DNA of 64,000 nucleotides from Yinghuangia seranimata (lineage in GTDB: Bacteria > Actinomycetota > Actinomycetes > Streptomycetales > Streptomycetaceae): positions 1 to 64,000 of the forward strand of contig NZ_JASAOI010000028.1 in NCBI RefSeq assembly GCF_029953285.1, written 5' to 3'. The notes beneath the pieces are model-generated. The model made no database searches. It saw only the letters and a list, made by a program, of their open reading frames with translations, and had not been told where the DNA came from. Below, one piece after another: positions 6,697 through 47,656 of this stretch (positions are counted from its first letter, which is position 1; each line of letters starts with the position of its first letter). Made by a program: the position numbers and the translations under genes.

Positions 6697-7569
6697 ATGG
6701 CACGGTCGGAAAACGGTCCACCGCACTCCGGCGGCGACGCCCTTCGCGTCGACCGGCTGCACGTCGCCTACGGGCGCTCCGTCCAGGCGCTGCGCGGCGT
6801 GACCGTCACGGTGCCGGCGAGCGGCATCGTGACGGTCCTCGGCGCGAACGGCGCCGGCAAGAGCACTCTGTTGCGCGCCATATCCGGCACGCTGTTCCTG
6901 CACCACGGCGCGATCGAGGGCGGCACGGTCAGCTACGGCGGGCGGACCCTCAACGGCCGCGACTCGGCCGCCGCCGTGCGCGCCGGGATCGTTCAAGTGC
7001 CTGAGGGCAGACGGGTGTTCGCGCGCCTGTCGGTCGCCGAGAACCTCCAGGCCGGGCTGCTCGGCACCGGCGGACGCCGCTCGGCGCGGGCCCGCGAGGC
7101 GCGCGACCGCGTCTTGGAGCTGTTCCCGGTGCTGGCCGAACGCGAGCACCAGCGCGCGGGGCTGCTGTCCGGCGGCGAGCAGCAGATGCTCGCGATCGGC
7201 CGCGCGCTGATGGCGGGGCCGCGCCTGCTGCTGCTCGACGAGCCGTCGCTCGGCCTTGCGCCGCGCATGGTCGGCCGCATCGCCGGCGTGGTCCGCGAGA
7301 TCGCCCGGCAGGGCACGGCCGTGCTGCTCGTGGAGCAGAACGCGGCGGTCGCGCTCGACCTTGCGGACACCGCCTACGTGCTGGACGTCGGCGAGGTGCG
7401 GCTCACCGGCCCGGCCGGCGACCTCGCCCGCACCGACGAGGTGCGGCGGCTGTACCTGGGCGAACACGACGCGCAGGCCGTGGACGGCGCGGCCCGCGAA
7501 CCGGCCGCCGCCACGGCGGGCACCGCGCCCGCTCGCGCCGCGGCCCCGCTGCGGAGGTGGCGCGGATGA
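6697..7569 (+). CDS. livF: Branched-chain-type ABC transporter ATPase (LivF-like)
   Basis: A 290-aa ATPase. Walker A GANGAGKST (about residues 49-57), signature LLSGGEQQML, Walker B LLLLDEPSLGLAP and the H-loop-type LLVEQNAA segment are intact. QVPEGRRVFARLSVAENL is characteristic of LivF rather than LivG. First gene of a five-gene operon, where LivF usually comes later. A GAGAAGGAGA ribosome site precedes the ATG. Its TGA overlaps the next ATG (ATGA). The C-terminal 35 residues are Ala/Pro-rich, longer than typical LivF. Confidence 0.93.
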   Translation: MARSENGPPHSGGDALRVDRLHVAYGRSVQALRGVTVTVPASGIVTVLGANGAGKSTLLRAISGTLFLHHGAIEGGTVSYGGRTLNGRDSAAAVRAGIVQVPEGRRVFARLSVAENLQAGLLGTGGRRSARAREARDRVLELFPVLAEREHQRAGLLSGGEQQMLAIGRALMAGPRLLLLDEPSLGLAPRMVGRIAGVVREIARQGTAVLLVEQNAAVALDLADTAYVLDVGEVRLTGPAGDLARTDEVRRLYLGEHDAQAVDGAAREPAAATAGTAPARAAAPLRRWRG

Positions 7570-8447
7570 CCCACGCCGCCACCACCCACAAGACCGACGC
7601 CGAACCGGACTTCACCGTCCCCGAACTGGCCGTGCGCGCGGTCACCGTCCGCTTCGCGGGCCTGGTCGCGCTCGACGCCGTCAGCTTCTCCGTCGCCCCC
7701 GGCAGCATCCACGCCGTCATCGGCCCCAACGGCGCCGGCAAGTCGACGTGCTTCAACGTGCTGTCCGGGGTCTACCGCGCCGAACGCGGCACCGTGCACC
7801 TCGGCGACCGCGAGCTGACCGGCCTGCCGCCGCACCGGATCGCCGCGCTCGGTGTGGCGCGCACGTTCCAGAACATCGTGCTCACGCAGGGCACCGTCGC
7901 CGACAACCTCATGCTCGGCCGCCACGCGCTCACCCGGGCCGGGTTCACCGCGACCGCGCTGCACCTGCCGTCCGCCGTCCGCGAGCAGCACAGGCACCGA
8001 GAACGCGCCCGGGAGATCGCCGAGTTCCTCGACCTCGGGGCGGTCTTCGACCAGCCGGTCACGCTGCTGCCGTACGGCGTGCGCAAGCGCGTCGAGATGG
8101 CCCGCGCGCTGTGCATGGAACCCAAGGTGCTGCTGCTCGACGAGCCGGTGGCCGGTATGAACGCCGACGAGCGGCTGCGCACCGCCGAGGCGATCACCGC
8201 CGTCCGCGACGGGCTGGGCATCTCGATCGTGCTGGTCGAGCACGACATGGGCCTGATCATGCGGCTCGCCGACGAGGTGACGGTGCTCGACTTCGGGCGC
8301 CGCATCGCGGGCGGCACGCCCGACGAGGTGCGCCAGGACCCCGCGGTCGTCCGCGCCTACCTGGGGGCGGGCGACGACGGCGACAACAGCGGGAACGGCC
8401 GGAACGGCGACAACGGAGACGCACGAGAGAACGAGGAGCGGCAATGA
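7566..8447 (+). CDS. livG: Branched-chain-type ABC transporter ATPase (LivG-like)
   Basis: A 293-aa ATPase with Walker A GPNGAGKST, Q-loop ARTFQNIVL, a LivG-type variant signature LPYGVRKRVEMARAL, Walker B VLLLDEPVAGMN and switch VLVEHDMGLI. The GVARTFQN and AGMN segments distinguish LivG from LivF. GGAGG sits eight bases before the ATG at 7566, which overlaps the livF stop; a GTG at 7557 is a less likely start. The C-terminal tail is a short Gly/Asn/Asp-rich run. Pairs with LivF as the ATPase heterodimer of the transporter. Confidence 0.93.
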   Translation: MTHAATTHKTDAEPDFTVPELAVRAVTVRFAGLVALDAVSFSVAPGSIHAVIGPNGAGKSTCFNVLSGVYRAERGTVHLGDRELTGLPPHRIAALGVARTFQNIVLTQGTVADNLMLGRHALTRAGFTATALHLPSAVREQHRHRERAREIAEFLDLGAVFDQPVTLLPYGVRKRVEMARALCMEPKVLLLDEPVAGMNADERLRTAEAITAVRDGLGISIVLVEHDMGLIMRLADEVTVLDFGRRIAGGTPDEVRQDPAVVRAYLGAGDDGDNSGNGRNGDNGDARENEERQ

Positions 8448-9334
8448 CCAAGCTCTCCGAGATCGCCCTCAACGGGCTCGCCCTCGGATCGGTGTACGCC
8501 CTCATCGCCCTGGGCTTCGTGGTGATCTTCAAGGCCTCCGGGGTGATGAACTTCGCGCACGCGTCGCTGCTGCTGCTCGGCGGCTACGTGATCGCCCGGT
8601 TCCACGACGAACTCGGCTTCGCGGGCGCGGTGGTGGTCGGCGTCCTGGCGACCGCGGCCGCCGCCGGCGTGATCGAGGTGCTGTTCATCCGCGGCCTGGG
8701 CAAGGTCGAACTGCACGTGCTGACGATCCTGACCATCGGCGTCGACATCCTCCTCACCACCGAACTGGTGCGCCGGATCGGCTCCGACAAGCTGTCGCTG
8801 GGCGACCCGTGGGGGACCGACGCGGCGCACATCGGCGACGTGTACGTCGCCGAGGCCCGCATCGCCGCGATCGTCGTGGCGGTCGTGCTGATCGGGGTGT
8901 TCTTCATCGCGTTCCGGTTCACCTCGTGGGGCCTGTCGATGCGGGCCGCGTCCGAGGACCGCGAGGCGGCCGCGCTGATGGGCGTGCGCATGAAACGCGT
9001 CCAGCTGATCGCGTGGTGCGTCGCGGGCGGACTCGCCGCGGTCGCGGCGGTGTTCCTGACCGCCGCGCCCACACCGGGGCTCGACCGCACGACCGGCCTG
9101 GTGGCGCTCAAGGCCTTCCCCGCGGCGGTGCTCGGCGGCATGGACTCCGCGCTCGGCGCGCTGATCGGCAGCCTGCTGGTCGGTCTCACCGAGGCGCTCG
9201 CGGCCGGCTACCAGAGCGAACTGGACGCGTTCGGCGGCGACGTGTCGAGCGTGGCGCCGTACGTCGTCATGATCCTGGTCCTGCTGGTGCGGCCGACCGG
9301 GCTGCTCGGGTCGAAGGAACTGAGCCGTGTCTGA
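8444..9334 (+). CDS. livH: Branched-chain-type ABC transporter permease (LivH-like)
   Basis: A 296-aa integral membrane protein with about eight hydrophobic segments. NGLALGSVYALIALGFVVIFKASGVMNFAHASLLLLGGY at the N-terminus is the LivH hallmark, and MRAASEDREAAALMGV is the cytoplasmic EAA-type loop that contacts the ATPase. Its ATG overlaps the livG stop (ATGA), preceded by GAGGAG. Together with LivM it forms the membrane channel. Confidence 0.93.
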   Translation: MTKLSEIALNGLALGSVYALIALGFVVIFKASGVMNFAHASLLLLGGYVIARFHDELGFAGAVVVGVLATAAAAGVIEVLFIRGLGKVELHVLTILTIGVDILLTTELVRRIGSDKLSLGDPWGTDAAHIGDVYVAEARIAAIVVAVVLIGVFFIAFRFTSWGLSMRAASEDREAAALMGVRMKRVQLIAWCVAGGLAAVAAVFLTAAPTPGLDRTTGLVALKAFPAAVLGGMDSALGALIGSLLVGLTEALAAGYQSELDAFGGDVSSVAPYVVMILVLLVRPTGLLGSKELSRV

Positions 9335-10466
9335 CCGGCTTGCCGCGCTGCTGCGCCCCGCCGCCCTCGGCACGCTGGCGGGGCTCGTCGTGCTCGCCGC
9401 GCTGCCCTTCTACCTGACCGACTTCTGGCTGCTGACCGGCCTGTTCGCGATGGCCGCCGCGCTCGGCGCGATCGGGCTGAACCTGCTGTCCGGAACGACC
9501 GGGCAGCTGTCGCTGGGGCACTCGTTCTTCCTGGCCGTCGGCGCGTACGGCTACATCTGGTTCGCGGGCGACGACGGCCGCAGCGGCACCCACGACGTCA
9601 CCGGGCTCGGACTGCCGACGCCGATCGCGCTGGTGGCCGCGGTCCTGCTGGCCGGCGTGATGGGCGGGCTGTTCAGCCCCATCTCGGGCCGGCTGCGCGG
9701 CATGTACCTCGGCGTCGCCACGCTCGCGCTGGTGTTCATCGGCGAGCACGTGATGAACAACGCCACGACGGTCACGGGCGGCTACAACGGGCGCGCCGCC
9801 GAGCCCATGACGTTCTTCGGCTTCACCCTCACCGACCGGGAACCGCACCTGGAGGTGCTCGGCATCGAGTTCGGCGCGTACGAACGCCTCTGGTACCTGG
9901 CCCTCGTGCTGCTGGTGGTCGGCGTCGTGGTGGCCCGCAACCTGCTGCGCGGCCGCCCCGGGCGGGCGCTCGGCGCGGTACGGGACAGCGAGATCGCGGC
10001 CGCCGTGATGGGCGTGCCCGTCGCCCGCTACCGGTCGGCGGCGTTCGTCGTGTCGTCCATGTACGCGGGTCTCGCCGGTGTGCTGCTCGCGCTGGTGTTC
10101 GGCCGGGTCATCCCGGACTACTTCGGCCTCGCGCTGTCCATCGACTACCTCGCGATGATCGTCATCGGCGGCCTCGGCTCGGTCGGCGGTGCGGTCGCCG
10201 GCGCCGCGTTCGTCACCGTGCTGCCGCAGCTGTTCGCGCACTACGCGGGCGCGCTGCCGCTGGTCACCGCCACCGGCACCGACGGCATCGGCCCGCAGGA
10301 GGCGTCCCGCTACCTGTACGGCGCGGCCATCGTCCTCGTCCTGCTGTTCTCGCCCGGCGGCCTGGCCGGGCTGGCCCGACGCACCGCCGCACCGCGCCGC
10401 CGCGCGGCCGGCCACGGAGCCACCTCCCGTCCGCGCACCAAGGAGCCCCAAGGAGCAGACACGTGA
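9327..10466 (+). CDS. livM: Branched-chain-type ABC transporter permease (LivM-like)
   Basis: A 379-aa permease starting with GTG eight bases inside the end of livH. LivM features are MAAALGAIGLNLLSGTTGQLSLGHSFFLAVGAY near residue 50 and the loop AVRDSEIAAAVMGV. About ten hydrophobic segments. The last 35 residues are a basic, Arg/Ala-rich cytoplasmic tail. Translationally coupled to both neighbours. Confidence 0.93.
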   Translation: MSDRLAALLRPAALGTLAGLVVLAALPFYLTDFWLLTGLFAMAAALGAIGLNLLSGTTGQLSLGHSFFLAVGAYGYIWFAGDDGRSGTHDVTGLGLPTPIALVAAVLLAGVMGGLFSPISGRLRGMYLGVATLALVFIGEHVMNNATTVTGGYNGRAAEPMTFFGFTLTDREPHLEVLGIEFGAYERLWYLALVLLVVGVVVARNLLRGRPGRALGAVRDSEIAAAVMGVPVARYRSAAFVVSSMYAGLAGVLLALVFGRVIPDYFGLALSIDYLAMIVIGGLGSVGGAVAGAAFVTVLPQLFAHYAGALPLVTATGTDGIGPQEASRYLYGAAIVLVLLFSPGGLAGLARRTAAPRRRAAGHGATSRPRTKEPQGADT

Positions 10467-11941: not shown

Positions 11942-12679
11942 TCAGACCGGGCGCAGGTGGACGATCCCCACCGGGTGGTGCGCGGACGCCGTGCGCAGTT
12001 CGCCGGCGCGGATGTGGGCCAGGAGGCCGTGGGCCCCCGTCTCTTCGAGGATGCGGATCGTGGTCGGGCGGTGGTCCGGGTGCAACGATTCCGCGCCGCC
12101 GCCGTTGATCAGGGCGATCGTGTGGACGCCGCGGCACGGGGTGGTGTCGTGCGCCGCGTCGGCGGCGATCGAGGGCCGTGCCCCCGCGGCGTGGTGGTGG
12201 CGCGCCGGGTCGGAGAGCGCCACGACGCCCACGTCGCGCCGGGTCAGGATCGTTCCGGGACCGAGCACGAGCTGGTCGACCCGGCCCTCCGCGAGCCGGA
12301 CCGCGACGATCGAGGCCGTCGGGGTGCCGTGCAGCGCGAGGTCGCAGCGGCCGCCGTGCAGGGCGGCCGTTTCCGCGATGGCGTCGGACAGGCAGTCCCG
12401 GATGGGGCGCTCGGGCCGGTCGGTGAGCCGGGCGAGCAGGTGCGCGCCGAGCCTGCGGAGGTACCAGCCGGTGCCGTGGCCGCAGCCCTCGACCGGGGTG
12501 CGGTGGGCGAGCGCGGTGGTGACGACGACGGCAGCCTCGGGGGTGGCCAGCGCGAAGACGCGGTCCCGGGGGCGGCGTGGTCCGCCGCCCGGCAGGTTGC
12601 GGTCGCCCGGGGCGCCGGCGTCCGAGCCAGCGTCCGAGCCGGGGTCCGAGCCGGGGTCCGTCACCACCTCGACATGCAC
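11942..12679 (-). CDS. Protein-phosphatase-2C-like domain protein (catalytic metal residues not evident)
   Basis: A 245-aa cytosolic protein. GHGTGWYLRRLGAHLLARL, CLSDAIAETAALHGGRCDL, TPTASIVAVRL and VDQLVLGPGTIL follow the layout of an actinobacterial PP2C-like family whose members have weak similarity to true PPM phosphatases. The usual DG/GDG metal-binding aspartates are not recognisable here, and the tail after about residue 170 diverges. The start is GTG (12679); the first 35 residues are a repeated GSDPGSDAGSDAG low-complexity run. A C-terminal fragment of the same family lies at 46714-47163. Function unknown. Confidence 0.6.
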   Translation of the reverse strand: MHVEVVTDPGSDPGSDAGSDAGAPGDRNLPGGGPRRPRDRVFALATPEAAVVVTTALAHRTPVEGCGHGTGWYLRRLGAHLLARLTDRPERPIRDCLSDAIAETAALHGGRCDLALHGTPTASIVAVRLAEGRVDQLVLGPGTILTRRDVGVVALSDPARHHHAAGARPSIAADAAHDTTPCRGVHTIALINGGGAESLHPDHRPTTIRILEETGAHGLLAHIRAGELRTASAHHPVGIVHLRPV

Positions 12680-15208: not shown

Positions 15209-15685
15209 ATGACCGATGCCGAGAGCCGTCGCGCGATCAACGAGGCCATCAACTCCGTCAAGCGCTTCGTCAACAGCCGCCAGCTGGACGCGCTGCACGC
15301 CGCCCGCTCCGGCGTCGCGCTCAACCTGGTCGCGATCGGCATCCTGCACCGCGTCCTCGACCACGGCCCGGTGCGGCCGACCGAGCTGGCCGAGCTCGCG
15401 GACATCCAGCCGGCCGCGCTGAGCCGGCAGATCCGGATCCTCGAGGAGGGCGGCTACATCGTCCGCATCGGCGACGCCGAGGACGGCCGGGTGTCGCTGG
15501 TCGACGCGACCGAGTCCGGGCGGGCGGCGTACGCGAGCTTCGCGGCCGCCAACGACGCGCTGCTGGCGGAGCAGCTCAAGGGTTGGACGGCGGAGGAACT
15601 GGGTGCGCTGGCCGAGCAGATGCAGCGGCTGGTCGCGGACCTGCGCGGTGTGAAGCGTGGTGCCGGGGCCGAGCACGCAGATTAA
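15209..15685 (+). CDS. MarR-family transcriptional regulator
   Basis: A 158-aa winged-helix regulator: VRPTELAELADIQPAALSRQIRILEEGGYIVRIGDAEDGRVSLVDATESG is the MarR recognition helix plus wing (about residues 53-103). Flanking helices form the dimer interface. It ends in TAA, and a textbook promoter overlapping a TTAA..TTAA palindrome begins with the next base, ahead of the dehydrogenase/kinase operon. It is therefore the probable local repressor of those genes. Confidence 0.92.
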   Translation: MTDAESRRAINEAINSVKRFVNSRQLDALHAARSGVALNLVAIGILHRVLDHGPVRPTELAELADIQPAALSRQIRILEEGGYIVRIGDAEDGRVSLVDATESGRAAYASFAAANDALLAEQLKGWTAEELGALAEQMQRLVADLRGVKRGAGAEHAD

Positions 15686-15714
15686 TTGACATGGTTAAGT
15701 AGTCGGGCTAGTTT
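15686..15714 (+). promoter_or_regulatory. Vegetative promoter with overlapping MarR-type operator
   Basis: TTGACA (15686-15691), 17-bp spacer, TAGTTT (15709-15714). The imperfect palindrome TTAATTGACATGGTTAA (15682-15698) covers the -35 box, where a bound MarR dimer would block RNA polymerase. Drives the acyl-CoA dehydrogenase and kinase genes. Confidence 0.75.
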
Positions 15715-15752
15715 CCCCGGACGAAAGCCGTCCGCGAACCGGGGAGAAGGCC

Positions 15753-17078
15753 ATGGCCTGGGACTTCCGCACCGATCCCGACTTCGAGCGGGAGCTCGAC
15801 TGGATCCGCGCCATGGTCGTCGAGGAGATCGAGCCGCTGGACCTGGTCCGGCACCGCATGAGCGCCGAGAACTGGCGCGCCGTCACCGGGCCGCTCAAGC
15901 AGCGCGTCAAGGACCGCGGGCTGTGGGCCGCGCACCTCGACCCCGAACTCGGCGGCCAGGGCTTCGGACAGGTCAAGCTCGCGCTGATGCACGAGATCCT
16001 CGGCCGCACCGGCTCGGCGCCGAACATCTTCGGCAACCAGGCCCCCGACTCGGGGAACAGCGAACTCCTCGCCGTCGGCGCCACCGACGCGCAGAAGGAC
16101 CGCTGGCTGTGGCCGCTCCTCGACGGCAAGCTCACCAGCTGCTTCTCGCTCACCGAGCCGCACACCGCCGGATCCGACCCGACCGGCATCACCACGCGCG
16201 CGGTGCGCGACGGCGACGACTACGTCATCGACGGGCACAAGTGGTTCGCGTCCAACGCCTCCCGTGCCGACTTCGTCCTCGTCTTCGCCGTCACCGACCC
16301 CGACGCCGAACGGCACCGCCGCGCCTCGATGTTCGTCGTCGAACGCGACACCCCGGGCCTGGAGATCGTGCGCAACGTGCACACCATGCACCACCCGTAC
16401 GACGGCGAGGCCACCCGCAACCTCGGCGGCCACGCCGAACTGCGGTTCACCGGCTGCCGGGTGCCCGCCGAGAACATGATCGGCGCGCCGGGCGACGCGT
16501 TCGTCCTCGCGCAGAAGCGCCTCAACGGCGGCCGCATCCACCACGCGATGCGCTGGATCGGGCAGTGCCGCCGCGCGTTCGACATGCTGTGCGAGCGCGC
16601 CGTCTCGCGCACGTCGCACGGCAAGCGGCTGGCCGACCAGCAGCTCATCCAGCAGATGGTGACCCGGTCGAACATCGAGATCGAGGCGTTCCGGCTGCTG
16701 ACCCTCAAGGCCGCGTGGACGTGGGACACCGACGGGCCGAAGGCGGCCCGCCAGGCGGTGTCCGAGGTCAAGTACTGGGGCGCGCAGATCCTCCACGACG
16801 TCGTCGACCGCGCCATCCAGGTGCACGGCGCGCTCGGCTACTCGACCGACCTGCCGCTGGAGGAGATGTACCGGCTGGCCCGCAACTTCCGCCTCGCGGA
16901 CGGCGCCGACGAGGTGCACATCCAGCAGATCGCCAAGATGATCCTGCGCCGCTACGAGGCCGTCGAGGGCTGGCCGAGCGAGCACGTCCCGACGCGTCGC
17001 GCGGCCGCCGAACAGCGGTACGCCGACTGGCTCGACCTGCCGGACGGGCAGCCGCGCTACCTGGGGCACTCCCTGTGA
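15753..17078 (+). CDS. Acyl-CoA dehydrogenase family protein
   Basis: A 441-aa flavoenzyme with the full acyl-CoA dehydrogenase layout: N-terminal helices, LTSCFSLTEPHTAGSDPTGI (FAD and substrate contacts, about residue 130), beta domain, and C-terminal helices with QVHGALGYSTDLPLEEMYRLARNFRLADGADEVHIQQIAK. It ends in GTGA, shared with the kinase gene start. Coupling an acyl-CoA dehydrogenase to an APH-fold kinase recalls eukaryotic ACAD10/ACAD11 and bacterial levulinate genes (LvaC/LvaA), in which a hydroxyacyl-CoA is phosphorylated before elimination. Substrate class here is therefore a hypothesis. GGGAGAAGG precedes the ATG. Confidence 0.93.
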   Translation: MAWDFRTDPDFERELDWIRAMVVEEIEPLDLVRHRMSAENWRAVTGPLKQRVKDRGLWAAHLDPELGGQGFGQVKLALMHEILGRTGSAPNIFGNQAPDSGNSELLAVGATDAQKDRWLWPLLDGKLTSCFSLTEPHTAGSDPTGITTRAVRDGDDYVIDGHKWFASNASRADFVLVFAVTDPDAERHRRASMFVVERDTPGLEIVRNVHTMHHPYDGEATRNLGGHAELRFTGCRVPAENMIGAPGDAFVLAQKRLNGGRIHHAMRWIGQCRRAFDMLCERAVSRTSHGKRLADQQLIQQMVTRSNIEIEAFRLLTLKAAWTWDTDGPKAARQAVSEVKYWGAQILHDVVDRAIQVHGALGYSTDLPLEEMYRLARNFRLADGADEVHIQQIAKMILRRYEAVEGWPSEHVPTRRAAAEQRYADWLDLPDGQPRYLGHSL

Positions 17079-18124
17079 GCGGCGGCGAGGCGGGGGCGAG
17101 AGCGGACGAGGCCGTCGTGAAGGACCCCGCGGACCCGGTGCGCCTGGCCGCCTGGGCCCGGGACGCCGGGCTGCTCGGCGCCGGGGACCTCACCGTCACG
17201 CGGTTGAGCGGCGGCGCGTCCAACCTCACCTACCGCGTGACCGGCGGCGGCCACGACTGGGTGCTGCGGCGGCCGCCCGCGTTCGGCGCGCTGCCGACGG
17301 CGCACGACATGGCGCGGGAGTTCCGTGTGCAGGCGGCGCTCGCGGGTAGCGGCGTCCCGGTGGCGGCGATGGTCGCGCTGTGCGGCGACCCGGGCGTGCT
17401 GGGCGCGCCGTTCTACCTCATGGAACGGCTGGACGGGGTGTTCCACACCCGGTCCGCCGACGTCGCGGCGCTGGCCCCCACCGTGGCCCGCGAGGCCGGG
17501 CTCGCGCTGGCCCGCGCGCTCGGGACGCTGCACGCCGTGCCGCCGTCCGCCGTGGGCCTCGGCGACCTGGCGCGGCCCGAGCCTTACCTGGAACGCCAGT
17601 TGCGGCGCTGGCGCGGGCAGTGGGACCGGGTCGGCTTCGACGAGGTGCCGGAGCTCGACCGGCTGCTGCGCGAACTCGGCGACGCGGTCCCGGCGTCCGG
17701 CCGGCTCGGCATCGTGCACGGCGACTACAACCTGGGCAACGTGATGTACCGGGCCGACGACCCGGCGCGGGTGCGGGCCGTCCTCGACTGGGAGCTGTCG
17801 GCGGTCGGCGACCCGCTCGCCGACGTCGGGCAGCTGCTGGCGTACTGGGGCGCGGCGGGGCGGCTGCTCAACGCGCACCGCGGCGGTCACCTTCCGGACG
17901 CCAACGCGGCGCTCCCGGGGCGCGACGAACTCGTCGAGGCGTACGTGGAGACGACCGGCGCGCCGCTGCCGGACCTCGCCTTCTACGAGCGCTTCGCGGT
18001 GGTGAAGCTCGCGGTGATCTGCGCGGGCTCGCTGGCGCGGGCGGCGGCGCCGGACCGGGAGCGCGTGGAGCGCACCGTCGGGCTGGTCGCGCGGCTGGCG
18101 GCGATCGCGGACGCGACGGGCTGA
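17075..18124 (+). CDS. APH-fold phosphotransferase (ACAD10/11-kinase or LvaA-like)
   Basis: A 349-aa kinase-fold protein starting with GTG inside the preceding stop codon. GGASNLTYRV (nucleotide loop), LRRPP, the catalytic loop HGDYNLGNVMY (about residues 214-224) and the metal-binding LDWELSAVGDPLADVGQLLAYW are intact, so it should bind ATP and phosphorylate a small hydroxyl substrate. The family is annotated as aminoglycoside phosphotransferase-like, but cotranscription with an acyl-CoA dehydrogenase points to hydroxyacyl-CoA metabolism, not drug resistance. Confidence 0.88.
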   Translation: MSGGEAGARADEAVVKDPADPVRLAAWARDAGLLGAGDLTVTRLSGGASNLTYRVTGGGHDWVLRRPPAFGALPTAHDMAREFRVQAALAGSGVPVAAMVALCGDPGVLGAPFYLMERLDGVFHTRSADVAALAPTVAREAGLALARALGTLHAVPPSAVGLGDLARPEPYLERQLRRWRGQWDRVGFDEVPELDRLLRELGDAVPASGRLGIVHGDYNLGNVMYRADDPARVRAVLDWELSAVGDPLADVGQLLAYWGAAGRLLNAHRGGHLPDANAALPGRDELVEAYVETTGAPLPDLAFYERFAVVKLAVICAGSLARAAAPDRERVERTVGLVARLAAIADATG

Positions 18125-18365: not shown

Positions 18366-19160
18366 CTACAGCGCCGTCATCCGCCCGCCGCTGACGACCA
18401 GGGTCTGGCCGGTCACGTACCGGGACGCGGGCGCGCACAGGAACGCCGCGCACGGCCCGATGTCCGTCACCGTGTCGCCGATCCAGCCCATCGGGATCAG
18501 GTCCGTGATGCGGCCCTCCATCGACGGGTCGAGCCGCATCGCGTTGTCGAGCGCGGGCGTGACGGCCAGCGGCGCGAGGCCGTTGACCCGGATCCGGTCC
18601 GGACCCCACTCGCGCGCAAGCGACTTGACGAACCCGCGCTGCGCGCCCTTCGCGGCCGCATAGAACGACAGGTTCGCGCTGCCCTGCATGCCCGCCGGGG
18701 ACGTGAGGAGCAGGTACGCGCCCTCGGTCGCCTTCAGGTACGGGTGCGCCGCGCGCGCGATCGTGAACGACGCGACCGACGCCACCGCCGCGTGCTCGTC
18801 CCACAGCTCGACCGGCGCGTGCTCCAGGTCGACCGGCTCGCTGGACCGGCGGCTCGTGGCGTTGTGCACGACGGCGTCCAGGCGTCCGAACCGGTCCGCG
18901 GCGTACGCGAGCGCCGCCTCGACCTGCTCTGGGTCGGTCACGTCGCACACCGCGGCGTCCGCCGTGCCGCCCGCGGCGGCGATCTCGGCGACCACCTCCG
19001 CACCGGCCTCCTTGCGCCGCGCGGTCACCACCACGCGCGCTCCGGCCTGCGCCAGCGCGACCGCGATGCCGCGTCCCACCCCGGCCGCCGCACCGGTCAC
19101 CAACACCGTCCGGCCGGCCAACGAGGCCTCCGGCACGAGGGATTCGGGCTGCCCGGTCAC
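18366..19160 (-). CDS. SDR-family oxidoreductase
   Basis: A 264-aa classical short-chain dehydrogenase. VLVTGAAAGVGRGIAVALA is the TGxxxGxG cofactor motif; SFYAAAKGAQRGFVKSLAREWG supplies the catalytic YxxxK; RVNGLAPLAVTPA and RYVTGQTLVVSGG are the usual C-terminal motifs. An Arg after the first strand (TARRKEAG) suggests NADPH. Start GTG 19160 overlaps the upstream gene's TGA by 4 nt, so the pair is translationally coupled. The longer open frame upstream is a shadow of that gene. Confidence 0.9.
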   Translation of the reverse strand: MTGQPESLVPEASLAGRTVLVTGAAAGVGRGIAVALAQAGARVVVTARRKEAGAEVVAEIAAAGGTADAAVCDVTDPEQVEAALAYAADRFGRLDAVVHNATSRRSSEPVDLEHAPVELWDEHAAVASVASFTIARAAHPYLKATEGAYLLLTSPAGMQGSANLSFYAAAKGAQRGFVKSLAREWGPDRIRVNGLAPLAVTPALDNAMRLDPSMEGRITDLIPMGWIGDTVTDIGPCAAFLCAPASRYVTGQTLVVSGGRMTAL

Positions 19161-19849
19161 GGGACCATCAGAGCTCCTCCGTCGAGCGGGAACGTCCCGC
19201 CGGTCAGATACCGGGCGCCGGGCCCGCACAGCAGCAGCACGACCTCGGCGACCGCCTCCGGCGACATCGCCTCCGCGCCGAGCGCGGCCTCGCTGCGGTC
19301 CACGTCGCTTCCGCGCAGCGCCTCGGCCTCGGCGTCCAGCGCGAACACCGTGGGTGCGAGCAGGTGGACGGCGACACCGTCGCGGGCCCACCGCCGGGCC
19401 GCCGACTTCGCGAGCGCCCGCAGCGACTCGGCGGCGGTGGCCAGTGGCACTACGCCCGCCCCGCCCTCGATCGCCACACTCGGCGCGACCAGCACGAACC
19501 GCGCCTCGCCCCGGCGTTCGGCGGCCGCCTTCAACAGCGGATGCGCGGCCTGGAGCGCGGCCAGCCCGTCCCGGACCGGCTGCTCGGCGAGGCGGTCCCA
19601 CTCCTGCGCGGACATGTCCACCACGGCGCGGGGGAGCGCCGACCCGGGCGTGTACGGCGCGTACACCACCAGTTCGACACCGTCCGCGGCGATCCCCGCC
19701 GCTTCGGCGTCCGCCGCGAGCCCGCCCCCGGACGCCGCCTCGCCGACGACGGTCCCCGCCGCCCGCAACGCGTCGCGGACCGCCCGCGCGATGTCGGACC
19801 CGCCGACCACCAAGGCCCCGCCCGGCCCCTGCCTCACCGTCACGACCAC
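19157..19849 (-). CDS. SDR-like protein with degenerate active site
   Basis: A 230-aa SDR relative. The fold is recognisable (ALVVGGSDIARAVRDAL at the N-terminus, LAKSAARRWARDGVAVHLLAPTVF, ARYLTGGTFPLDGGALMVP at the end). However the glycine-rich TGxxxGxG is reduced to VGGSDIA and the catalytic YxxxK is missing (LATAAESLRAL in its place). It may be a non-catalytic partner of the downstream intact SDR, as in heteromeric SDR pairs (inference). GTG start; upstream 92-bp gap to the SnoaL-like gene. Confidence 0.75.
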   Translation of the reverse strand: MVVTVRQGPGGALVVGGSDIARAVRDALRAAGTVVGEAASGGGLAADAEAAGIAADGVELVVYAPYTPGSALPRAVVDMSAQEWDRLAEQPVRDGLAALQAAHPLLKAAAERRGEARFVLVAPSVAIEGGAGVVPLATAAESLRALAKSAARRWARDGVAVHLLAPTVFALDAEAEALRGSDVDRSEAALGAEAMSPEAVAEVVLLLCGPGARYLTGGTFPLDGGALMVP

Positions 19850-20487: not shown

Positions 20488-22365
20488 ATGGACGTGACGG
20501 CGTATGTCGCACTGCTGGACAACCTGGACTCACCGGACGGCGCCGTGTTCGCCCGTCTGGAGGCCGAACTGCCGGACCACGTCCGCCGCGAGCGCGCCCT
20601 TCCGGCGCGGCTTGAGCGGGCCCGGGCCGTCGTCTACCACTTCGCGGGCGACGAACCGACCATCCGGACCTGGCGGTTGACCGGGGCGACGGTCGCCGCC
20701 CTCGTCGAGGGCTCCGCGCCGGCCGCGCCGACGCTGCGCCTCCTGCGCTCGCTGGCGCCGAAGCACGGCTGGGCGTACCTCGACGGCGTCCGTGGCCTCT
20801 CCGCCCTCGTCGAGCGGTGCCTCGGGGCCGATCCGGCGGCCTGGGCGTACGTCCAGAAGCGGCTGGCCGCCTACCCCGGGACGCTGCCCGGCCTCGTCGA
20901 GTCCGCGTCGTGGGGCGCGGACGAGCCGGGCGCGGCCCAGCGGCCCGTCGTACGCCTGCCCGCCACCCCGCGCGCCGTCACCGCCGAGTTCCGCCAGCTC
21001 CTGCTCATGCTGAGCGCCGACACGCTGGCCGCCCTCGTCCCGCACCTGCACCGGTCGACCGTGTTCGACCTGGCCAGGTTCGGCGCCCCGCTGTCCCCCG
21101 CGACGCTGGCGTGGCTCGTCGCCACCGAGACCCCCAAGCGCCGCACAGTGCTCGCCAAAGCGCGCTGGAGCCGCCCCGGACTCGCCGCCGCCCTGGTCGA
21201 TCTGGGCGACACCGAGGTCAACGCGGCGCTCTACCTCAACGCGCACACGTCGGTCGCCGTGCGTGCGCGCATCATGGCGGCCGCCGCCGAAGTGCCGCTC
21301 CACCCTTCGGTCGTCGCCCGGGTGTGCGGCTCGCCGGAGCGCGGTATGCGCCTGCCCGCGCTGTGGTCCGGCGACCCGCTGCTCGTCCGCGCCGCGCTGC
21401 TGCGCAACACCCACACCACCAGCTCGGTGCAGGCGCGCATGCGCGCCTGGCAGCAGGGCGGCGTCGAGGCGCTCACGCAGCACTACGCGCTGCCCGAGCC
21501 CACCGAGGACCACCGCCCGTCCGTGTTCAAGCCGCCGCGCTACCGCTCGCTGCTGCTGACCGCGGTCGCCCGCCTGTGGGCGCGCCACGGCCGCGACGAG
21601 GCCCGGCGGCTCGTCGACGAGCTGCCCTTGTGGCCGGGGAACGCCCGGTACTTCGCGGACCTGTTCGCCGCCGACGACGGGCTCACCCGGCTGACCGCGG
21701 ACGTCGCCGCCCGCACCGGCACGAAGGCGCTGGTCAAGCGGCTGCGGCGTTCGTCGTCCGCGCGGCTGTGGCCGCTGCTCGAGACGCCGTACGCCGACTG
21801 GGCGGTGATCGGACGCGCCGAGCGGGCGCGGCCGCTGTCGAGCGCGGCGTGGACGCTGCTGTCCGGCATGCCGGGCTGCCCGCGCCGCGAGGTGTCCGAA
21901 GGCCTCCACGACAACGGCGCGGCGCAGGTGGACGCGGGCCGCTGGCCGGCGACGCGCGAGGTCGCGGCGCCGCGCGAATGGGTCGCCGGCAGCTACCTGG
22001 TGGCCGAACCGGCGCGACGCGGCGAGCCGTTGCCCGCCGAGCACCTGTTCGAGGCGATGACGCCGGCGTCGCGGGCGCTGAACACGTTCGGGTGTCTGAC
22101 GGAGCTGATCGGGCCGCCGGCGCACCGGGCGTCCGGCGCGGGCGACGAGGGCGAGCCGGGCGTACCGGCGCCGGGCGTTCTGATGCTGCGCTACCGCGCG
22201 CACCTGCAGTCGCTGGTCGAGCGGAACCTGGGCGCGTCGACGGACGCGCGCGTGGTCGCGATGCGCCTGCTGCCCGATTTTCCCGGGACGACGGAGGAAC
22301 TGCTCGCTACGGCGGGCACCATCGCGCGGACGGACGTGGAACTGCCGGCCGCGGCGGGGGCCTGA
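20488..22365 (+). CDS. Unrecognised 625-aa protein, mostly alpha-helical
   Basis: No family recognised. No signal peptide or membrane segment. The sequence looks helical with short Leu/Ala-rich repeats (LRRLRRSSSARLWPLL, LYLNAHTSVAVRARIMAAA, VRAALLRNTHTTSSVQARMR) resembling leucine-rich-repeat-variant or HEAT solenoids. The middle section LGDTEVNAALYLNAHTSVAVRARI is the most repeat-like. GGGGGAGG lies close to the ATG, and codon bias is strong, so it is certainly coding. Single-gene unit, opposite to the SnoaL/SDR genes and followed by a separate promoter. Possibly a scaffold or regulatory protein. Confidence 0.8.
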   Translation: MDVTAYVALLDNLDSPDGAVFARLEAELPDHVRRERALPARLERARAVVYHFAGDEPTIRTWRLTGATVAALVEGSAPAAPTLRLLRSLAPKHGWAYLDGVRGLSALVERCLGADPAAWAYVQKRLAAYPGTLPGLVESASWGADEPGAAQRPVVRLPATPRAVTAEFRQLLLMLSADTLAALVPHLHRSTVFDLARFGAPLSPATLAWLVATETPKRRTVLAKARWSRPGLAAALVDLGDTEVNAALYLNAHTSVAVRARIMAAAAEVPLHPSVVARVCGSPERGMRLPALWSGDPLLVRAALLRNTHTTSSVQARMRAWQQGGVEALTQHYALPEPTEDHRPSVFKPPRYRSLLLTAVARLWARHGRDEARRLVDELPLWPGNARYFADLFAADDGLTRLTADVAARTGTKALVKRLRRSSSARLWPLLETPYADWAVIGRAERARPLSSAAWTLLSGMPGCPRREVSEGLHDNGAAQVDAGRWPATREVAAPREWVAGSYLVAEPARRGEPLPAEHLFEAMTPASRALNTFGCLTELIGPPAHRASGAGDEGEPGVPAPGVLMLRYRAHLQSLVERNLGASTDARVVAMRLLPDFPGTTEELLATAGTIARTDVELPAAAGA

Positions 22366-38469: not shown

Positions 38470-38991
38470 TCAATAACCCTGAGCGGCGCCCTTCAAAACC
38501 CTCATCGCCCGCGCAAACGCCCCAACTCCATCCCCCAACGCGGCGAAGAACGCCGCGTCGCACGCCTCCACAACCGCCACCGCCTGGTCCGCCAGAGCCC
38601 GCCCCTCGGCCGTCACCGCCAGCGCACGCGCGCGGCCGTCGTGCGGATGAGGCATGCGTTCGACCAGCCCGCGCGACTCGAGCGTCCGCAGCACCTGCGA
38701 CGTCATCATCGGATCCGTGGACGCGTGGTCCGCCAGCCGCTTCTGCGTGACCGGCCCCTCGGCCTGCAACCAGCTCAGCGAGGCCAGCAGCACGAACTGC
38801 ACATGCGTCAGCTCGTACGGCTTGAGCGCCGCCCGCTGCGCCGCCTGCCAGCGGTTGGTCACCTGCCACAACAGCAGCCCCGGGCTCTCCTCCGCATGAG
38901 CGAACCCGCTGGCCAGCCGGCGAACCCCGTGCGGCCCCCGGCCCTCGCCGGCTGCCGCGTCGTCCGACCCCTGTGCCCCGCGCGCGCTCAT
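38470..38991 (-). CDS. MarR-family transcriptional regulator
   Basis: A 173-aa winged-helix regulator: KPYELTHVQFVLLASLSWLQAEGPVTQKRLADHASTDPMMTSQVLRTLESRGLVERMPHPHDGRARALAVTAEGRAL is unmistakable MarR (helices plus wing, about residues 48-125). The ATG overlaps the stop of the EVE gene upstream (ATGA), so the two proteins are made together. Local role probably linked to the EVE protein. Confidence 0.92.
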   Translation of the reverse strand: MSARGAQGSDDAAAGEGRGPHGVRRLASGFAHAEESPGLLLWQVTNRWQAAQRAALKPYELTHVQFVLLASLSWLQAEGPVTQKRLADHASTDPMMTSQVLRTLESRGLVERMPHPHDGRARALAVTAEGRALADQAVAVVEACDAAFFAALGDGVGAFARAMRVLKGAAQGY

Positions 38992-39497
38992 CCCTCGACC
39001 ATAGCCGCACTGATCAGCGCGAAGTCCTCCGTACTCAGCTCCACCAACCCGCGCCGCAGCTGGTACCCCCAGTTCGGCCCGGCCGTCAGTGCCAACTCCC
39101 CACCGAACTCCGCGACTCCGACCTCCGTCGCCCCACCGACGTACTCGACCCGCCGCCGCCACGGCTTGAACTCACCCTCGTCCGCCTGCCACACGACCTC
39201 ATCGACCACCCGCCCGACAGCCGTGAACGCCTGCAACGGCGCCCCACCCCGCAACGCCGTCCGCGGCGAGTAATACACCAGCCAGTCCCCAGCACTCATC
39301 CGCAGCAACGGCGCCTTCTTCCCATGCCCCAACTGCGCAATCCCGCGCTCCACCCCCCGCCACACATGCTCCCGACACACCACCCCGACCCAAGCCCGCC
39401 CACCCCCGAGCGAGACCCCGCCCCCCGAGGCCCCGTCCACACCCCTCGCCCCGACCCCCGCGATCTCCAGCTCCAGCTGCCGCTGCATCATCTCCAT
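38988..39497 (-). CDS. EVE-domain protein
   Basis: A 169-aa protein. RAWVGVVCREHVWRGVERGIAQLGHGKKAPLLRMSAGDWLVYYSPRTALRGGAPLQAFTAVGRV is the EVE fold (PUA/YTH-like), typically binding modified bases in DNA or RNA. The rest (EYVGGATEVGVAEFG, LSTEDFALISAAM) completes the domain. The true start is uncertain: ATG 39497 follows CATAGT by six bases (leaderless geometry); ATG 39491/39488 are alternatives, with GGAG too close for a normal ribosome site. Overlaps the MarR start. EVE genes are common near restriction and other defence genes, though none is recognised here. Confidence 0.85.
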   Translation of the reverse strand: MEMMQRQLELEIAGVGARGVDGASGGGVSLGGGRAWVGVVCREHVWRGVERGIAQLGHGKKAPLLRMSAGDWLVYYSPRTALRGGAPLQAFTAVGRVVDEVVWQADEGEFKPWRRRVEYVGGATEVGVAEFGGELALTAGPNWGYQLRRGLVELSTEDFALISAAMVEG

Positions 39498-39619
39498 GCA
39501 TTTACTATGCGCGCTTACTATCTCCCCAGTCAACGGCCTTCCAACAACCACCCACACGACGGGCACCCGCCCCCCAACCGGCCGCCCCCGCCGTCGCATC
39601 CACCCCGCGATCAGCGTGA

Positions 39620-40096
39620 TCAGCGTTGACTCCCACCCCCACCCACCAACGCCTCCACCTCAACCACCAGCGCACTCATCTCGGCCCCCGCCTCCACCAC
39701 CGTCGTCACCTCAGCCCGCCACACCTCACCCCCAGCACCGCGCCCCATGACCGCCCACGTAATGGCCACATGCCCGCCGCTCCGAAACACCGCCGACGCC
39801 GTAAGCTCCCGCCCCCAAGACCCCCACGTCCGCGCCCCCTCCCACCCGCGAAACCCCTCGGCCAACTCCCCGAGAAACTCCGCCAACCCCCCAGCCCCAG
39901 CCGAAGTCGCCACCCGGACACGCGCACTCAACCCAACATCACTAACCGTCGCGACCAGGGTCGTCACATACTCATCCCCCTCCTCCCACCCCAACCTCAA
40001 CGCCCCCTGCTGAGGCCCCCCACCAACGACCAACTCTCCCGAATCCCACATGACTCGCGAGCCTAGCCACCGCCACCGAAACGACCGGTCCGCCAT
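39620..40096 (-). CDS. DUF6228-type protein
   Basis: A 158-aa protein matching my recollection of DUF6228: LRLGWEEGDEYVTTLVATVSDVGLSARVRVATSAGAGGLAEFLGELAEGFRGWEGARTWGSWGRELTASAVFRSGGHVAITWAV. The WRGAR-like and SGGHVALTW motifs are diagnostic. Function unknown; such proteins occur singly in actinobacterial accessory regions. The start is ambiguous: ATG 40096 used, GTG 40138 and ATG 40051 also possible. Not coupled to its neighbours. Confidence 0.7.
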   Translation of the reverse strand: MADRSFRWRWLGSRVMWDSGELVVGGGPQQGALRLGWEEGDEYVTTLVATVSDVGLSARVRVATSAGAGGLAEFLGELAEGFRGWEGARTWGSWGRELTASAVFRSGGHVAITWAVMGRGAGGEVWRAEVTTVVEAGAEMSALVVEVEALVGGGGSQR

Positions 40097-40162
40097 CGTG
40101 CGCCCCGACCGATCGCCCCCGCCTGCCGTCAAGGCCACTCCGTCGATGCCTTCGTCGGATTC

Positions 40163-41296
40163 TCAGTCGAGCCGGTCAACAAGGATCATCGCCACGTCGT
40201 CCCCCAAGCGGCCTTGCGTGTGACGAAGCAATGCCTTGTGCAGCTCCTCCAGGAAATCCGGCGGGGTGCAAGCGCTTGCCGCTTCCATGGCCTCGGACAG
40301 GGAAAAGAATTCACTGTCTTGATTGCGGGCTTCGATCACGCCGTCGGTGTACAGCAGCAGTCGGTCGCCGGGCGCGAACGAATAGCTCGCCGCCTTGGCG
40401 GGAGGGCCGGTGACCAGGTCTTCCAGCCCGAGGGGCGGTTCTGTTGAGGTGGGTACCAAAGCCTGCACCCTGCCCTGGTGCAGCATCAGCGGCGCCGGGT
40501 GGCCATGGTTGACCAGCTCCACCACGTGGTCGTCGGGCACCTGAGCCACGATCACGGTGACGAACGATTCCGTCGGGTCCTTCTCGTCGTCCTGACTCGT
40601 CCCCAGCGGCATGGCACGCTCCCGTCGCAGCGCCGCCGCGCAGTGGTCGATGACCTCCAACAGGTCATCCTCATAGTGCACGGCCTCCCGGAAGGCGCTC
40701 AGCACAGCCGCGGCCGAGCGAACCGCGGGCAGCCCCTTGCCCCGTACGTCCCCTACGATCATCCGCACCCCGTACCGCGTCTCCACAGCCTCGTACAGGT
40801 CACCGCCAATCTGCGCGCCGGCCTCTGCCGCGAGGTACATGCTCGCCGTCCGCACCGAACCCAGCCGGTCGGGAACCGGCCGCAGAAGGACGCTTTGCGC
40901 CGCCGCGGAAATTCGGCGTACCTGGTTGAGTTCACTCTGCCTGCGCGAATGCATCGCGCTACTGGTCGCGATACTCGCTGCGGACACCAGGAAAATCGCC
41001 AGGAAATTGGTGTAGACCTGCTGCGTGCCCCACGCCTGGTTGTAGGTGGCAGTAGTCACGCTGACAGCCAGAGCGACAGCCGCTGCCGAAATAGTTCCTT
41101 TAGGCCCCATCGTCACCGCAGCCAGCGCCGGCGTCGCGGTCAGGAGAGGACCGGTGTACAGAAAGTGTGCGGGTGAAAGTTCAATCCCCACCACAAGCAG
41201 CGCGATCGCGAACGGCACACACCGTGCGACCACGAACAGGAGCCGATTGTGACTACCCGCTCCTGATCGTCGAGCCGAACGGAAGAGCGACCGCAT
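40163..41296 (-). CDS. Membrane-anchored PP2C/SpoIIE-type serine phosphatase
   Basis: A 377-aa protein with a membrane region of about four helices (residues 18-115: FAIALLVVGIELSPAHFLYTGPLL, LAAVTMGPKGTISAAAVALAVSVT, NFLAIFLVSAASIATSS), then a SpoIIE-type phosphatase domain: AGAQIGGDLYEAVETRYGVRMIVGDVRGKGLPAVRSAAAVL, HPAPLMLHQGRV, LLLYTDGVIEARN and LGDDVAMILV hold the metal-binding aspartates. Probably a regulator of anti-sigma/anti-anti-sigma signalling at the membrane; no partner gene adjoins. TAAGGC followed by seven bases precedes ATG 41296, so possibly leaderless. Confidence 0.92.
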   Translation of the reverse strand: MRSLFRSARRSGAGSHNRLLFVVARCVPFAIALLVVGIELSPAHFLYTGPLLTATPALAAVTMGPKGTISAAAVALAVSVTTATYNQAWGTQQVYTNFLAIFLVSAASIATSSAMHSRRQSELNQVRRISAAAQSVLLRPVPDRLGSVRTASMYLAAEAGAQIGGDLYEAVETRYGVRMIVGDVRGKGLPAVRSAAAVLSAFREAVHYEDDLLEVIDHCAAALRRERAMPLGTSQDDEKDPTESFVTVIVAQVPDDHVVELVNHGHPAPLMLHQGRVQALVPTSTEPPLGLEDLVTGPPAKAASYSFAPGDRLLLYTDGVIEARNQDSEFFSLSEAMEAASACTPPDFLEELHKALLRHTQGRLGDDVAMILVDRLD

Positions 41297-41306
41297 GACT
41301 ACAGCC

Positions 41307-41471
41307 TTACGCGTCGCCGCAGACTGTTCCAGTCATCGCACTCCTCGCCCGGCAACGACTCCGCAGCACCACGCCAGAAAGCCACAACACCGAGCCCAGA
41401 CCCCCGGCCCAGACCCTCTTCTCCGATCGGGGCGAATCGAACTCATGCCGCTCCAGAATCACGTGTGCCAT
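41307..41471 (-). CDS. Possible small 54-aa protein upstream of the phosphatase
   Basis: An open frame MAHVILERHEFDSPRSEKRV.. ending TAA only 10 bp before the phosphatase start, with GGGGTGG before its ATG. A hydrophobic stretch (VWAGGLGSVLWLSGVVL) could be a membrane helix. No family recognised; it may be noncoding. Confidence 0.3.
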   Translation of the reverse strand: MAHVILERHEFDSPRSEKRVWAGGLGSVLWLSGVVLRSRCRARSAMTGTVCGDA

Positions 41472-41778
41472 CACGCCACCCCGACCCCCGCACCGCAATC
41501 ACACCCGACGTGACCGACCCCTCCCACCCCAGCCGTCGCCTCCCGCGCCGGACCCCGCCCTCTGGGGCGTGTCATGGCAACGGGAGCAGACGCCGAACGT
41601 CCGTGAGCGGTGCCAAGCGCCCGCGCTGCCCCCATGCGTACAGCACGCCGCTCAGGCGAATGGCTCCGGAGTGCGGATGTACGCACCGATGTACATGCAG
41701 GTCAGGGCTTGATCACGAGCATGGTCATATCGTGCCCGAGCGCTTCCTTGATGACCGTGCGCACGCCAGAATCCGAGC
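41472..41778. other. 307-bp region with no recognised gene
   Basis: No convincing coding sequence. On the minus strand a frame ending in TGA at 41707-41709 reads VIKEALGHDMTMLVIKP, plausible as a protein C-terminus, overlapping the divergent DUF6193 start; possibly the remnant of a lost gene. Confidence 0.4.
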
Positions 41779-42138
41779 ATGACCGAATCGTTGGATGACG
41801 CCTGGGACCGCCGGGCAGCCACCGCAGCCCACTGGGATGACCGCCACCGAGTGCCCAGCAAAATATGGGTCCCGCCGATCATGCTCGACTTGGTCAATAC
41901 GGCGCGGGCCAGCCCGCTGGGACGGTTTTACCCGTTCACCAGCCACGCCTGGCTGCGCTTCAGTACCGGGCCGCGTGTTGAGCCTTGGGACGCGGAAGTG
42001 TTGCCAATCATGATCGGGTTGACCCCCGATGCCCACTACCTAGTGGCCAACAGCGACGGGGCGGATGGCCTGGAGGAGATCCTCAAGACAACCAGCGCCG
42101 CGGAAGCGGTGGCGAGGGCAGCCCAGTTGATCACCTAG
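41779..42138 (+). CDS. DUF6193-like protein
   Basis: A 119-aa protein: ARASPLGRFYPFTSHAWLRFSTGPRV and the C-terminal SAAEAVARAAQLIT match my recollection of the DUF6193 family often called natural-product-biosynthesis related, though the role is unproven. N-terminal LDDAWDRRAATAAHWDDRHRVPSKIW. Only rightward gene in the accessory segment 38.4-45.5 kb. No strong ribosome site before ATG 41779; AGAATC five bases earlier might be a -10 box. Confidence 0.65.
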   Translation: MTESLDDAWDRRAATAAHWDDRHRVPSKIWVPPIMLDLVNTARASPLGRFYPFTSHAWLRFSTGPRVEPWDAEVLPIMIGLTPDAHYLVANSDGADGLEEILKTTSAAEAVARAAQLIT

Positions 42139-42205
42139 CGACTGGGCTCGAACCAGCATCCGACAGAACTCGCGCTCTGACCTTGGGAATCAGCTACACG
42201 ATCAC
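42139..42205 (-). other. tRNA-3'-half-like remnant
   Basis: On the minus strand the segment contains GGTCAGAGC (D-arm like), and GCTGGTTCGAGCCCAGT, which can fold as a T-arm with a TTCGAGC loop. No matching acceptor 5' strand or anticodon arm can be built, so it is not a functional tRNA. It may be a decayed attachment site or tRNA fragment in the accessory region. Confidence 0.35.
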
Positions 42206-42272
42206 CGCAACAGGGCCCCTGAGCTGCACCAACGCCCCATCCACCCAAGATCGCGTACCCAACCCCTGACCC

Positions 42273-42593: not shown

Positions 42594-42633
42594 GCTGACA
42601 ACTCCTGCTGGGGCCTGCCCGGTGTGTGGCTGC

Positions 42634-42963: not shown

Positions 42964-42970
42964 GCTCAGG

Positions 42971-42976
42971 ACCCTA
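42971..42976 (-). promoter_or_regulatory. -10 box TAGGGT of the CPCC gene
   Basis: On the minus strand TAGGGT lies exactly seven bases before ATG 42963. Confidence 0.5.
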
Positions 42977-44759: not shown

Positions 44760-44765
44760 GGGCAA

Positions 44766-47163: not shown

Positions 47164-47174
47164 GGCTCGGCGGT

Positions 47175-47637: not shown

Positions 47638-47656
47638 ATCCGCTGGTGAATCGAAG

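Follow-up and report, generated by a model that had tools for sequence, protein, structure and literature searches.

Removal of a hydroxyl group from an acyl chain before beta-oxidation has been recognised only recently, and the closest described systems come from mammals and from Pseudomonas. In the available sections of PMC12440821 and PMC11342911, mammalian ACAD10 and ACAD11 are presented as fusions of a kinase with an acyl-CoA dehydrogenase (ACAD). In the lva operon of Pseudomonas putida, as far as the accessible text of PMC6692424 describes it, kinase (LvaA) and ACAD (LvaC) are encoded by separate genes of a catabolic operon that works through a 4-phosphoacyl-CoA intermediate; LvaA works with LvaB, a protein of 12 kDa, and the regulator LvaR is of the sigma-54 type. 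According to the same text, homologues of lvaABCD occur in Alpha-, Beta- and Gammaproteobacteria, and a P. citronellolis cluster is devoid of LvaB. Here we analyse a 64,000-nt stretch of Yinghuangia seranimata DNA (contig NZ_JASAOI010000028.1, positions 1 to 64,000 of the forward strand; hereafter, the window) in which a MarR-family regulator gene is followed by an ACAD gene and an APH-fold kinase gene. It is likely that the three constitute a catabolic module for fatty or branched acids with a C4 hydroxyl, in which the kinase would phosphorylate the hydroxyl, the ACAD would eliminate the phosphate and MarR would act as repressor. For the chemistry there are precedents in mammals and Pseudomonas; the novelty lies in its wiring to MarR, in an actinobacterial version that lacks LvaB and in an operator of two tandem units.

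Results

The three genes lie in tandem on the + strand: the MarR-family regulator, a proposed dedicated repressor (15209-15685, 158 aa; Pfam PF12802/PF01047, E ~5e-10), the ACAD10/11-LvaC-type dehydrogenase, a putative 4-phosphoacyl-CoA eliminase (15753-17078, 441 aa; ACAD C-terminal domain, E 1.1e-37), and the APH-fold kinase, a putative 4-hydroxyacyl-CoA kinase (17075-18124, 349 aa; APH, E 6.2e-51). The GTG start of the kinase (17075-17077) shares bases with the TGA stop of the dehydrogenase (17076-17078), which is the 'GTGA' overlap pointed out by a first-pass annotation of this DNA. The interval 15686-18124 coincides with one mechanical open reading frame of 812 aa, which we dismissed as a gene: it stays open through the ACAD gene in the frame of the kinase, and its actual content is the two genes. 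The source assembly comprises 9.8 Mb in 113 contigs, and the closest named relative found is Yinghuangia soli, whose ACAD is 94% identical. MarR, ACAD and APH are all under purifying selection between the two genomes, with ratios of nonsynonymous to synonymous substitution rates (NG86 method) of 0.12, 0.10 and 0.26, respectively.

Among solved structures, the top relatives of the dehydrogenase are mouse and human ACAD11 and chain 4hr3, which we take to be from Mycobacterium abscessus (E 1.7e-81 to 1.4e-77, mouse ACAD11 first), and the best match outside the top four drops to E 2.5e-48. In ACAD11, according to the sections available of PMC12440821, Arg626, His634 and Arg637 were modelled as the holders of the phosphate of 4-phosphoacyl-CoA, nonconservative changes at these three positions disrupted ACAD activity most, and Asp753 is the catalytic residue; mutations of the four residues abolish or impair the phosphate step. 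These four residues align with Arg256, His264, Arg267 and Asp383 of the window protein, the Asp383 column being anchored by chain 8v3v, the A* mutant of ACAD11, which carries Asn at that place. In an alignment of 52 hand-picked representatives (44 of the family and 8 canonical ACADs), all four residues are present in 44/44 family rows, a count biased upward by the search itself, in which one of six peptides included a portion of the phosphate-site motif (IHHAMRWI). Arg256, His264 and Asp383 each occur in 0/8 canonical rows, where Glu replaces Asp383 in 8/8; Arg267 is not exclusive, since Arg is found in 4/8. Pro90, which aligns with the helix-breaking Pro463 of human ACAD11, is not diagnostic, because proline occupies that column in only 27/44 family rows and in 1/8 canonical rows.

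A fairer test of the residue set than this chosen alignment is the survey of ACADs encoded in the source genome. A search with the whole ACAD protein gave 43 matches, 30 of which were made into loci, and 27 of these could be scored for at least one site, the other three (L020, L022 and L029) being uncovered. The full four-residue set was found, among the 27, only in the two best ACADs, that of the window and that of contig C78, and each of them adjoins a kinase of the ACAD11 class. In the ACAD tree, the 44 family rows split from the 8 canonical rows with support 100/99; P. putida LvaC was not among the taxa, and the likeness of the window proteins to LvaA and LvaC is by description.

The kinase matches the solved chains 9o56, 3dxp (presumably from Ralstonia) and the ACAD11 kinase with E values from 2.9e-52 to 9.9e-39. 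The ACAD11 kinase ranks third among its solved relatives (E 7.5e-40), and a macrolide kinase reaches only 2.9e-7. The catalytic loop HGDYNLGN, reported as intact by the first-pass annotation, corresponds to residues 215-222, and its core H215, D217 and N222 is complete. The arginines on the CoA side are also kept: Arg81, next to the alpha-C Glu (Glu82), and Arg174, equivalent to ACAD11 Arg176; Arg81 was assigned by the description in the ACAD11 paper, whose number 86 mismatches the printed chain. Because the kinase is far closer to that of ACAD11 than to the macrolide kinase and keeps both the loop and the CoA-side arginines, it probably belongs to a metabolic, ACAD11-like class rather than to the resistance enzymes. 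Similar kinases annotated as 'phosphotransferase family protein' or 'aminoglycoside phosphotransferase' are thus probably metabolic genes and not resistance genes. Four matches of the kinase class were found in the source genome overall, the one on contig C76 being distant (32%).

Taken together, the enzymatic reading of the pair appears well supported: as the first-pass annotation had proposed from the ACAD10/ACAD11 and LvaA/LvaC counterparts, the ACAD11 residues are all present, ACAD11 structures are among the top relatives and the trees of both proteins agree. By analogy with those systems, the two genes probably encode a 4-hydroxyacyl-CoA kinase and its phosphate-eliminating partner.

The phylogenies also delimit the group to which the pair belongs. 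A clade of seven ACAD rows (support 100/99) unites the window with Y. soli, Streptomyces sp. SID3343 (L039), Embleya hyalina (L041), an Acidimicrobiales metagenome-assembled genome (L042) and two Frankia loci (L043 and L044), and the kinase tree (41 rows) recovers the same seven loci with the same inner branching (support 97/95); in the latter tree the long branches L095, L104 and L034 are unsafe. L086 was left out of the ACAD tree because its ACAD is frameshifted, and the called piece is 59-72% identical to clade members. At E 1e-5 and across 72 loci, MarR matches occur only beside this group, namely in both Yinghuangia, L039-L041, L098-L101, L042, L044 and L086, with MarR pointing away from the ACAD in the last three. 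Among 150 genomes drawn from the family, 9 have the ACAD at E up to 1e-130 and 6 of these 9 carry the MarR-linked form, so the module is patchy in the family.

Adjacency of kinase and ACAD is common and not obligatory. In 60 loci from named genomes, the two genes lie less than 600 bp apart in 22 and within 3.5 kb in 2 more, 7 loci are cut by contig ends, and 29 (including L096 and L097, outside the family) have no kinase despite at least 1.2 kb on both sides. Many of the unlinked loci (L045-L059, L062-L064 and others) belong to Acidimicrobiia, with an ACAD about 60% identical to that of the window and a complete phosphate-site motif, and three Acidimicrobiales genomes examined, each with an unlinked ACAD, all contain kinases of the class elsewhere in the genome. 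The first-pass annotation had taken a kinase without a dehydrogenase nearby as an outcome that would speak against it, and on this point the result is mixed, with the 22 adjacent loci on one side and the 29 unlinked ones, together with a solitary kinase of the source genome described below, on the other.

The promoter suggested earlier, TTGACA-17-TAGTTT, lies on the + strand at 15686-15714, with the -35 box TTGACA at 15686-15691, a 17-nt spacer and the -10 box TAGTTT, of TANNNT type, at 15709-15714. The pattern TTGACA-N16-18-TANNNT has its sole match in the window here (0.05 expected; present in 5/100 shuffles), and TTGAC, the 17-nt spacing and the TANNNT box are preserved in all six upstream regions compared (window, Y. 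soli, SID3343, E. scabrispora, E. hyalina and G005). No promoter at 15686-15714 came out of the sigma-70 scan, and TAGTTT fits TATAAT at only 3/6 positions.

The operator named in the first-pass annotation, TTAA-N9-TTAA, is only part of the likely one. Within TTAATTGACATGGTTAA (15682-15698), the informative core is a 5-3-5 inverted repeat over the -35 box, TTGAC-ATG-GTTAA (unit 1, 15686-15698, + strand). A second 13-bp unit (unit 2, 15699-15711, + strand) abuts it without a gap and reaches into the -10 box, and this succession, TTGAC-N3-GTTAA followed by the second unit, is found upstream of the ACAD in 6/6 regions. Unit 2 reads TTAAC-N3-GTTAA in E. scabrispora, E. hyalina and G005, is one base off in SID3343 (L039) and is degenerate in both Yinghuangia (GTAGTCGGGCTAG in the window). 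Unit 1 begins 35, 67 or 115 nt ahead of the ACAD start, depending on the region, so that the operator block stands out like a footprint. The -10 box and the ATG are 6 nt apart in the four Embleya-type regions, which suggests a leaderless message; by Embleya-type we mean genus g4, which we identify with Embleya since the matches obtained with its genomes are those of L039-L041.

At the scale of whole genomes, TTRACNNNGTTAA has a single site in the window, where 0.01 would be expected, and one other in the whole 9.8-Mb assembly; G005, G020 and G030, which are Embleya-type genomes of 11-12 Mb, have it at this promoter alone. The source genome (G000) and G001 have one extra, non-orthologous site each, and G002, which is devoid of the MarR-linked form, still has one. 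The reversed-pattern control gives 0 to 2 matches per strand and genome, so that isolated extra sites do not exceed the background. We also considered a second regulon member and rejected it: the extra sites of G000 and G001 precede different genes resembling short-chain dehydrogenases (SDRs), which are 33% identical and not orthologous.

The regulator has a winged-helix MarR domain and the predicted palindromic operator overlaps the promoter, for which a repressor sitting across the promoter would be the simplest reading. Control of the pair by MarR is thus supported by the conserved sequences, and more strongly than the first-pass annotation had claimed. In L042 and L044, a related repeat, TTCAC-N3-GTGAA, lies inside the MarR-ACAD gap; the alignment of the MarR proteins revealed no residue assignable to the half-site change from TTGAC to TTCAC.

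Discussion

A model of the pathway can be proposed as follows. A CoA ligase encoded elsewhere would produce the 4-hydroxyacyl-CoA, and the APH-fold kinase, to judge from its family and residues, would transfer a phosphate from ATP to the 4-hydroxyl. In the ACAD, Asp383 would act as the base and FAD would participate without net oxidation, while Arg256, His264 and Arg267 would hold the phosphate. Expulsion of the phosphate would leave a 2-enoyl-CoA that could enter ordinary beta-oxidation. MarR, bound to the two adjacent operator units over the -35 and -10 boxes, would block transcription of the ACAD and kinase genes as long as no inducer frees it from the DNA; this inducer would probably be the substrate or a CoA intermediate.

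How does this arrangement compare with the known ones? With ACAD11 it shares an APH-class kinase, the catalytic Asp and the Arg/His/Arg phosphate site. In the mammalian proteins, as the available sections of PMC12440821 and PMC11342911 present them, kinase and ACAD are fused, whereas here they are two overlapping genes, ACAD first and then kinase; the HCMR of ACAD10/ACAD11 is HAMR here, in a subclade of its own and with MarR alongside. The resemblance to the lva operon lies in the separate genes; the differences, within what the accessible text of PMC6692424 covers, are LvaB, the adjacent CoA ligase and the sigma-54-type LvaR of Pseudomonas, none of which was found here, where MarR is present instead. 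No MarR-controlled or actinobacterial version appeared in the literature searched (titles and abstract openings), in which MarR and 4-hydroxy acids were not a combined query.

Like the mammalian ACAD10/ACAD11 systems, this genome has no LvaB-like gene that we could find: DUF6285 (PF19802) gave 0 matches in the assembly, which is 97.98% complete, and the family was detected in 2/14 control genomes. We infer that LvaB belongs to DUF6285 because an operon of Pantoea sp. Cy-639 (L095, 2513-7551) encodes a kinase, a DUF6285 protein, an ACAD, an SDR and an AMP-ligase. This operon was also tried as a stand-in for LvaC and rejected: its ACAD is only 35.9% identical to mouse ACAD11 compared with the 56% reported for LvaC in the part available of PMC11342911, so it represents a distinct lva-like operon. 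As a separate observation, the L095 kinase aligns Gln and Leu at the two CoA-side arginines, in a weak alignment; these residues may hint at what the DUF6285 partner encoded in the operon compensates for.

A paralogous pair exists in the source genome on contig C78, where an ACAD (61%) and an APH kinase (47%) are adjacent and show the same active-site residues. Unlike the window, the C78 operon contains, by eye, a ligase-like gene of 266 aa, a further ACAD gene, an SDR and an upstream TetR, and no MarR match was found within 4.3 kb of this locus (L002).

Several observations weigh against the proposed module, among them the bias of the 44/44 count mentioned above. Over 355 aligned residues, the window ACAD shares 41.7% identity with mouse ACAD11, below the 56% reported for LvaC. 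Contig C46 (101 kb) encodes a kinase of the class and has no ACAD match, and 27/58 family loci have no kinase nearby (at least 1.2 kb on each side). As to regulation, the six operator regions represent two genera and are therefore dependent cases, the L086 upstream region shows, by eye, no clear 5-3-5 repeat, and Frankia L043 has the enzyme pair with no MarR match nearby (E 1e-5; L060 ends at a contig edge). Finally, no CoA ligase was detected among the genes scanned at 5069-25111 (7566-8447, 9327-10466 and 20488-22365 lie outside the scan), which contain no sigma-54 activator either; two relatives of the L043 ligase, with 45-50% identity, are encoded on other contigs of the source genome.

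Which acyl chains might enter the pathway? The alternative that survives best keeps the two-step chemistry and changes the substrate, so that the 4-hydroxyacyl-CoA would derive from a terpenoid, a steroid side chain, an aromatic compound or a lactone. We regard this as possible, though less probable than a route for fatty or branched acids. It would agree with the P450 gene right behind the kinase in L042, with the ChsH2-type OB protein and the thiolase beside MarR in L044, with the AMP-ligase that adjoins the pair in L043 and lies near it in L086, and with the relatives found on plasmids of Rhodococcus and others (kinase, 245 records at E 1e-20; ACAD, 222 at E 1e-50), where, among the matches listed, the two genes adjoin each other in Variovorax sp. 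PDNC026 and are separated by about 0.8 kb in Rhodococcus sp. DMU1. The neighbours shared within Streptomycetaceae, an ABC transporter in the window and in L041 and two SDRs, point to no single substrate. A much more speculative extension, to which we give very little weight, is that the MarR-linked clade is a specialised gamma-hydroxyacyl-CoA route for opened lactones, possibly gamma-butyrolactone signals, with MarR sensing the CoA or 4-phospho intermediate.

A second alternative leaves the enzymes as proposed and assigns the palindrome to the divergent TetR or to a general lipid regulator, with MarR controlling something else. The perfect palindrome TTGAC-N3-GTCAA does occur at 16 places in the source genome, several of them beside genes that by eye resemble acyl-CoA genes. 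Against this, no match to the TetR that is adjacent to MarR in Yinghuangia was found in those Embleya-type loci that keep the operator (upstream coverage of 8 kb in L041 and of 0.4-1 kb in the others), and in L039 and L041 the gene adjoining MarR is a counterpart of window 11942-12667. The restriction of the GTTAA form to this promoter in the three Embleya-type genomes and the TTCAC-N3-GTGAA repeat in the MarR-ACAD gap of L042 and L044 likewise argue for MarR, and we consider the alternative unlikely. That the remaining rival, an ordinary ACAD dependent on FAD and electron transfer flavoprotein beside an unrelated small-molecule or antibiotic kinase, with the overlap as mere operon packing, should hold is highly improbable: the Pfam hits are indeed confined to general ACAD and APH models, and every NCBIfam match of the two enzymes falls far under its cut-off, but the Asp in place of the Glu base and Arg256/His264 are absent from all canonical ACADs aligned (unlike Arg267, common to half of them), the kinase is far nearer to ACAD11 than to a resistance kinase, and the clade is congruent between the two trees.

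The broader form of the palindrome, TTRAC-N3-GTYAA (TTRACNNNGTYAA), deserves a separate description. It occurs at 18 places in G000, the window included, compared with 4 for the reversed control. The loci concerned are L106, L107, L109-L113 and L115-L119 (L109 and L115 seem to duplicate a single region), on contigs C7, C9, C26, C27, C29, C39, C49, C52, C56, C66 and C69. Thirteen of 15 palindrome loci, again counting the window, are intergenic and precede, by no more than about 100 bp, a gene start given by a simple gene caller, and several neighbours resemble, by eye, acyl-CoA ligase, hydratase or MarR genes. Perhaps this genome-wide palindrome is the operator of another lipid regulator. At L117 (G000:C56:80154-81749), it is located 56 bp upstream of a ligase-like gene whose identity to the AMP-ligases located close to the ACAD and kinase genes of L043 and L086 is 45-52%.

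A catabolic module for C4-hydroxylated fatty or branched acids under MarR control would extend the removal of hydroxyl groups before beta-oxidation to a regulated actinobacterial system, with a predicted operator that is sharp and testable, and the first-pass interpretation of the locus was in this sense mostly right. A sensor for 4-hydroxy acids could be built from MarR and its tandem operator, and the role of LvaB could emerge from comparing LvaA with this kinase, which has no such partner.

The direct neighbours of the pair are MarR, TetR and the SDRs. Convergent with the pair, on the - strand, a short-chain dehydrogenase identified by Pfam (18366-19160) is overlapped by a second, shorter SDR-like protein (19157-19849), only the C-terminal part of which matches the SDR profile; both are conserved in L038, L039 and L041. 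The first might interconvert 4-keto and 4-hydroxy forms, and the two are possibly a pair of an active and an inactive SDR. Upstream of the pair lies an ABC transporter of the branched-chain-amino-acid type, conserved in L041, and it is possible that the transporter and the two convergent SDRs are further members of the module.

Farther downstream, the G+C content of the window drops to 0.65-0.68 at 40-50 kb compared with 0.68-0.79 elsewhere, and the GC skew goes down to -0.48 at 39-40 kb. Encoded in this region (39001-50000) are a phosphatase of the SpoIIE type (40163-40840) and, at 48387-50000, an arginyl-tRNA synthetase, and another MarR gene (38470-38862) is located just ahead of it.

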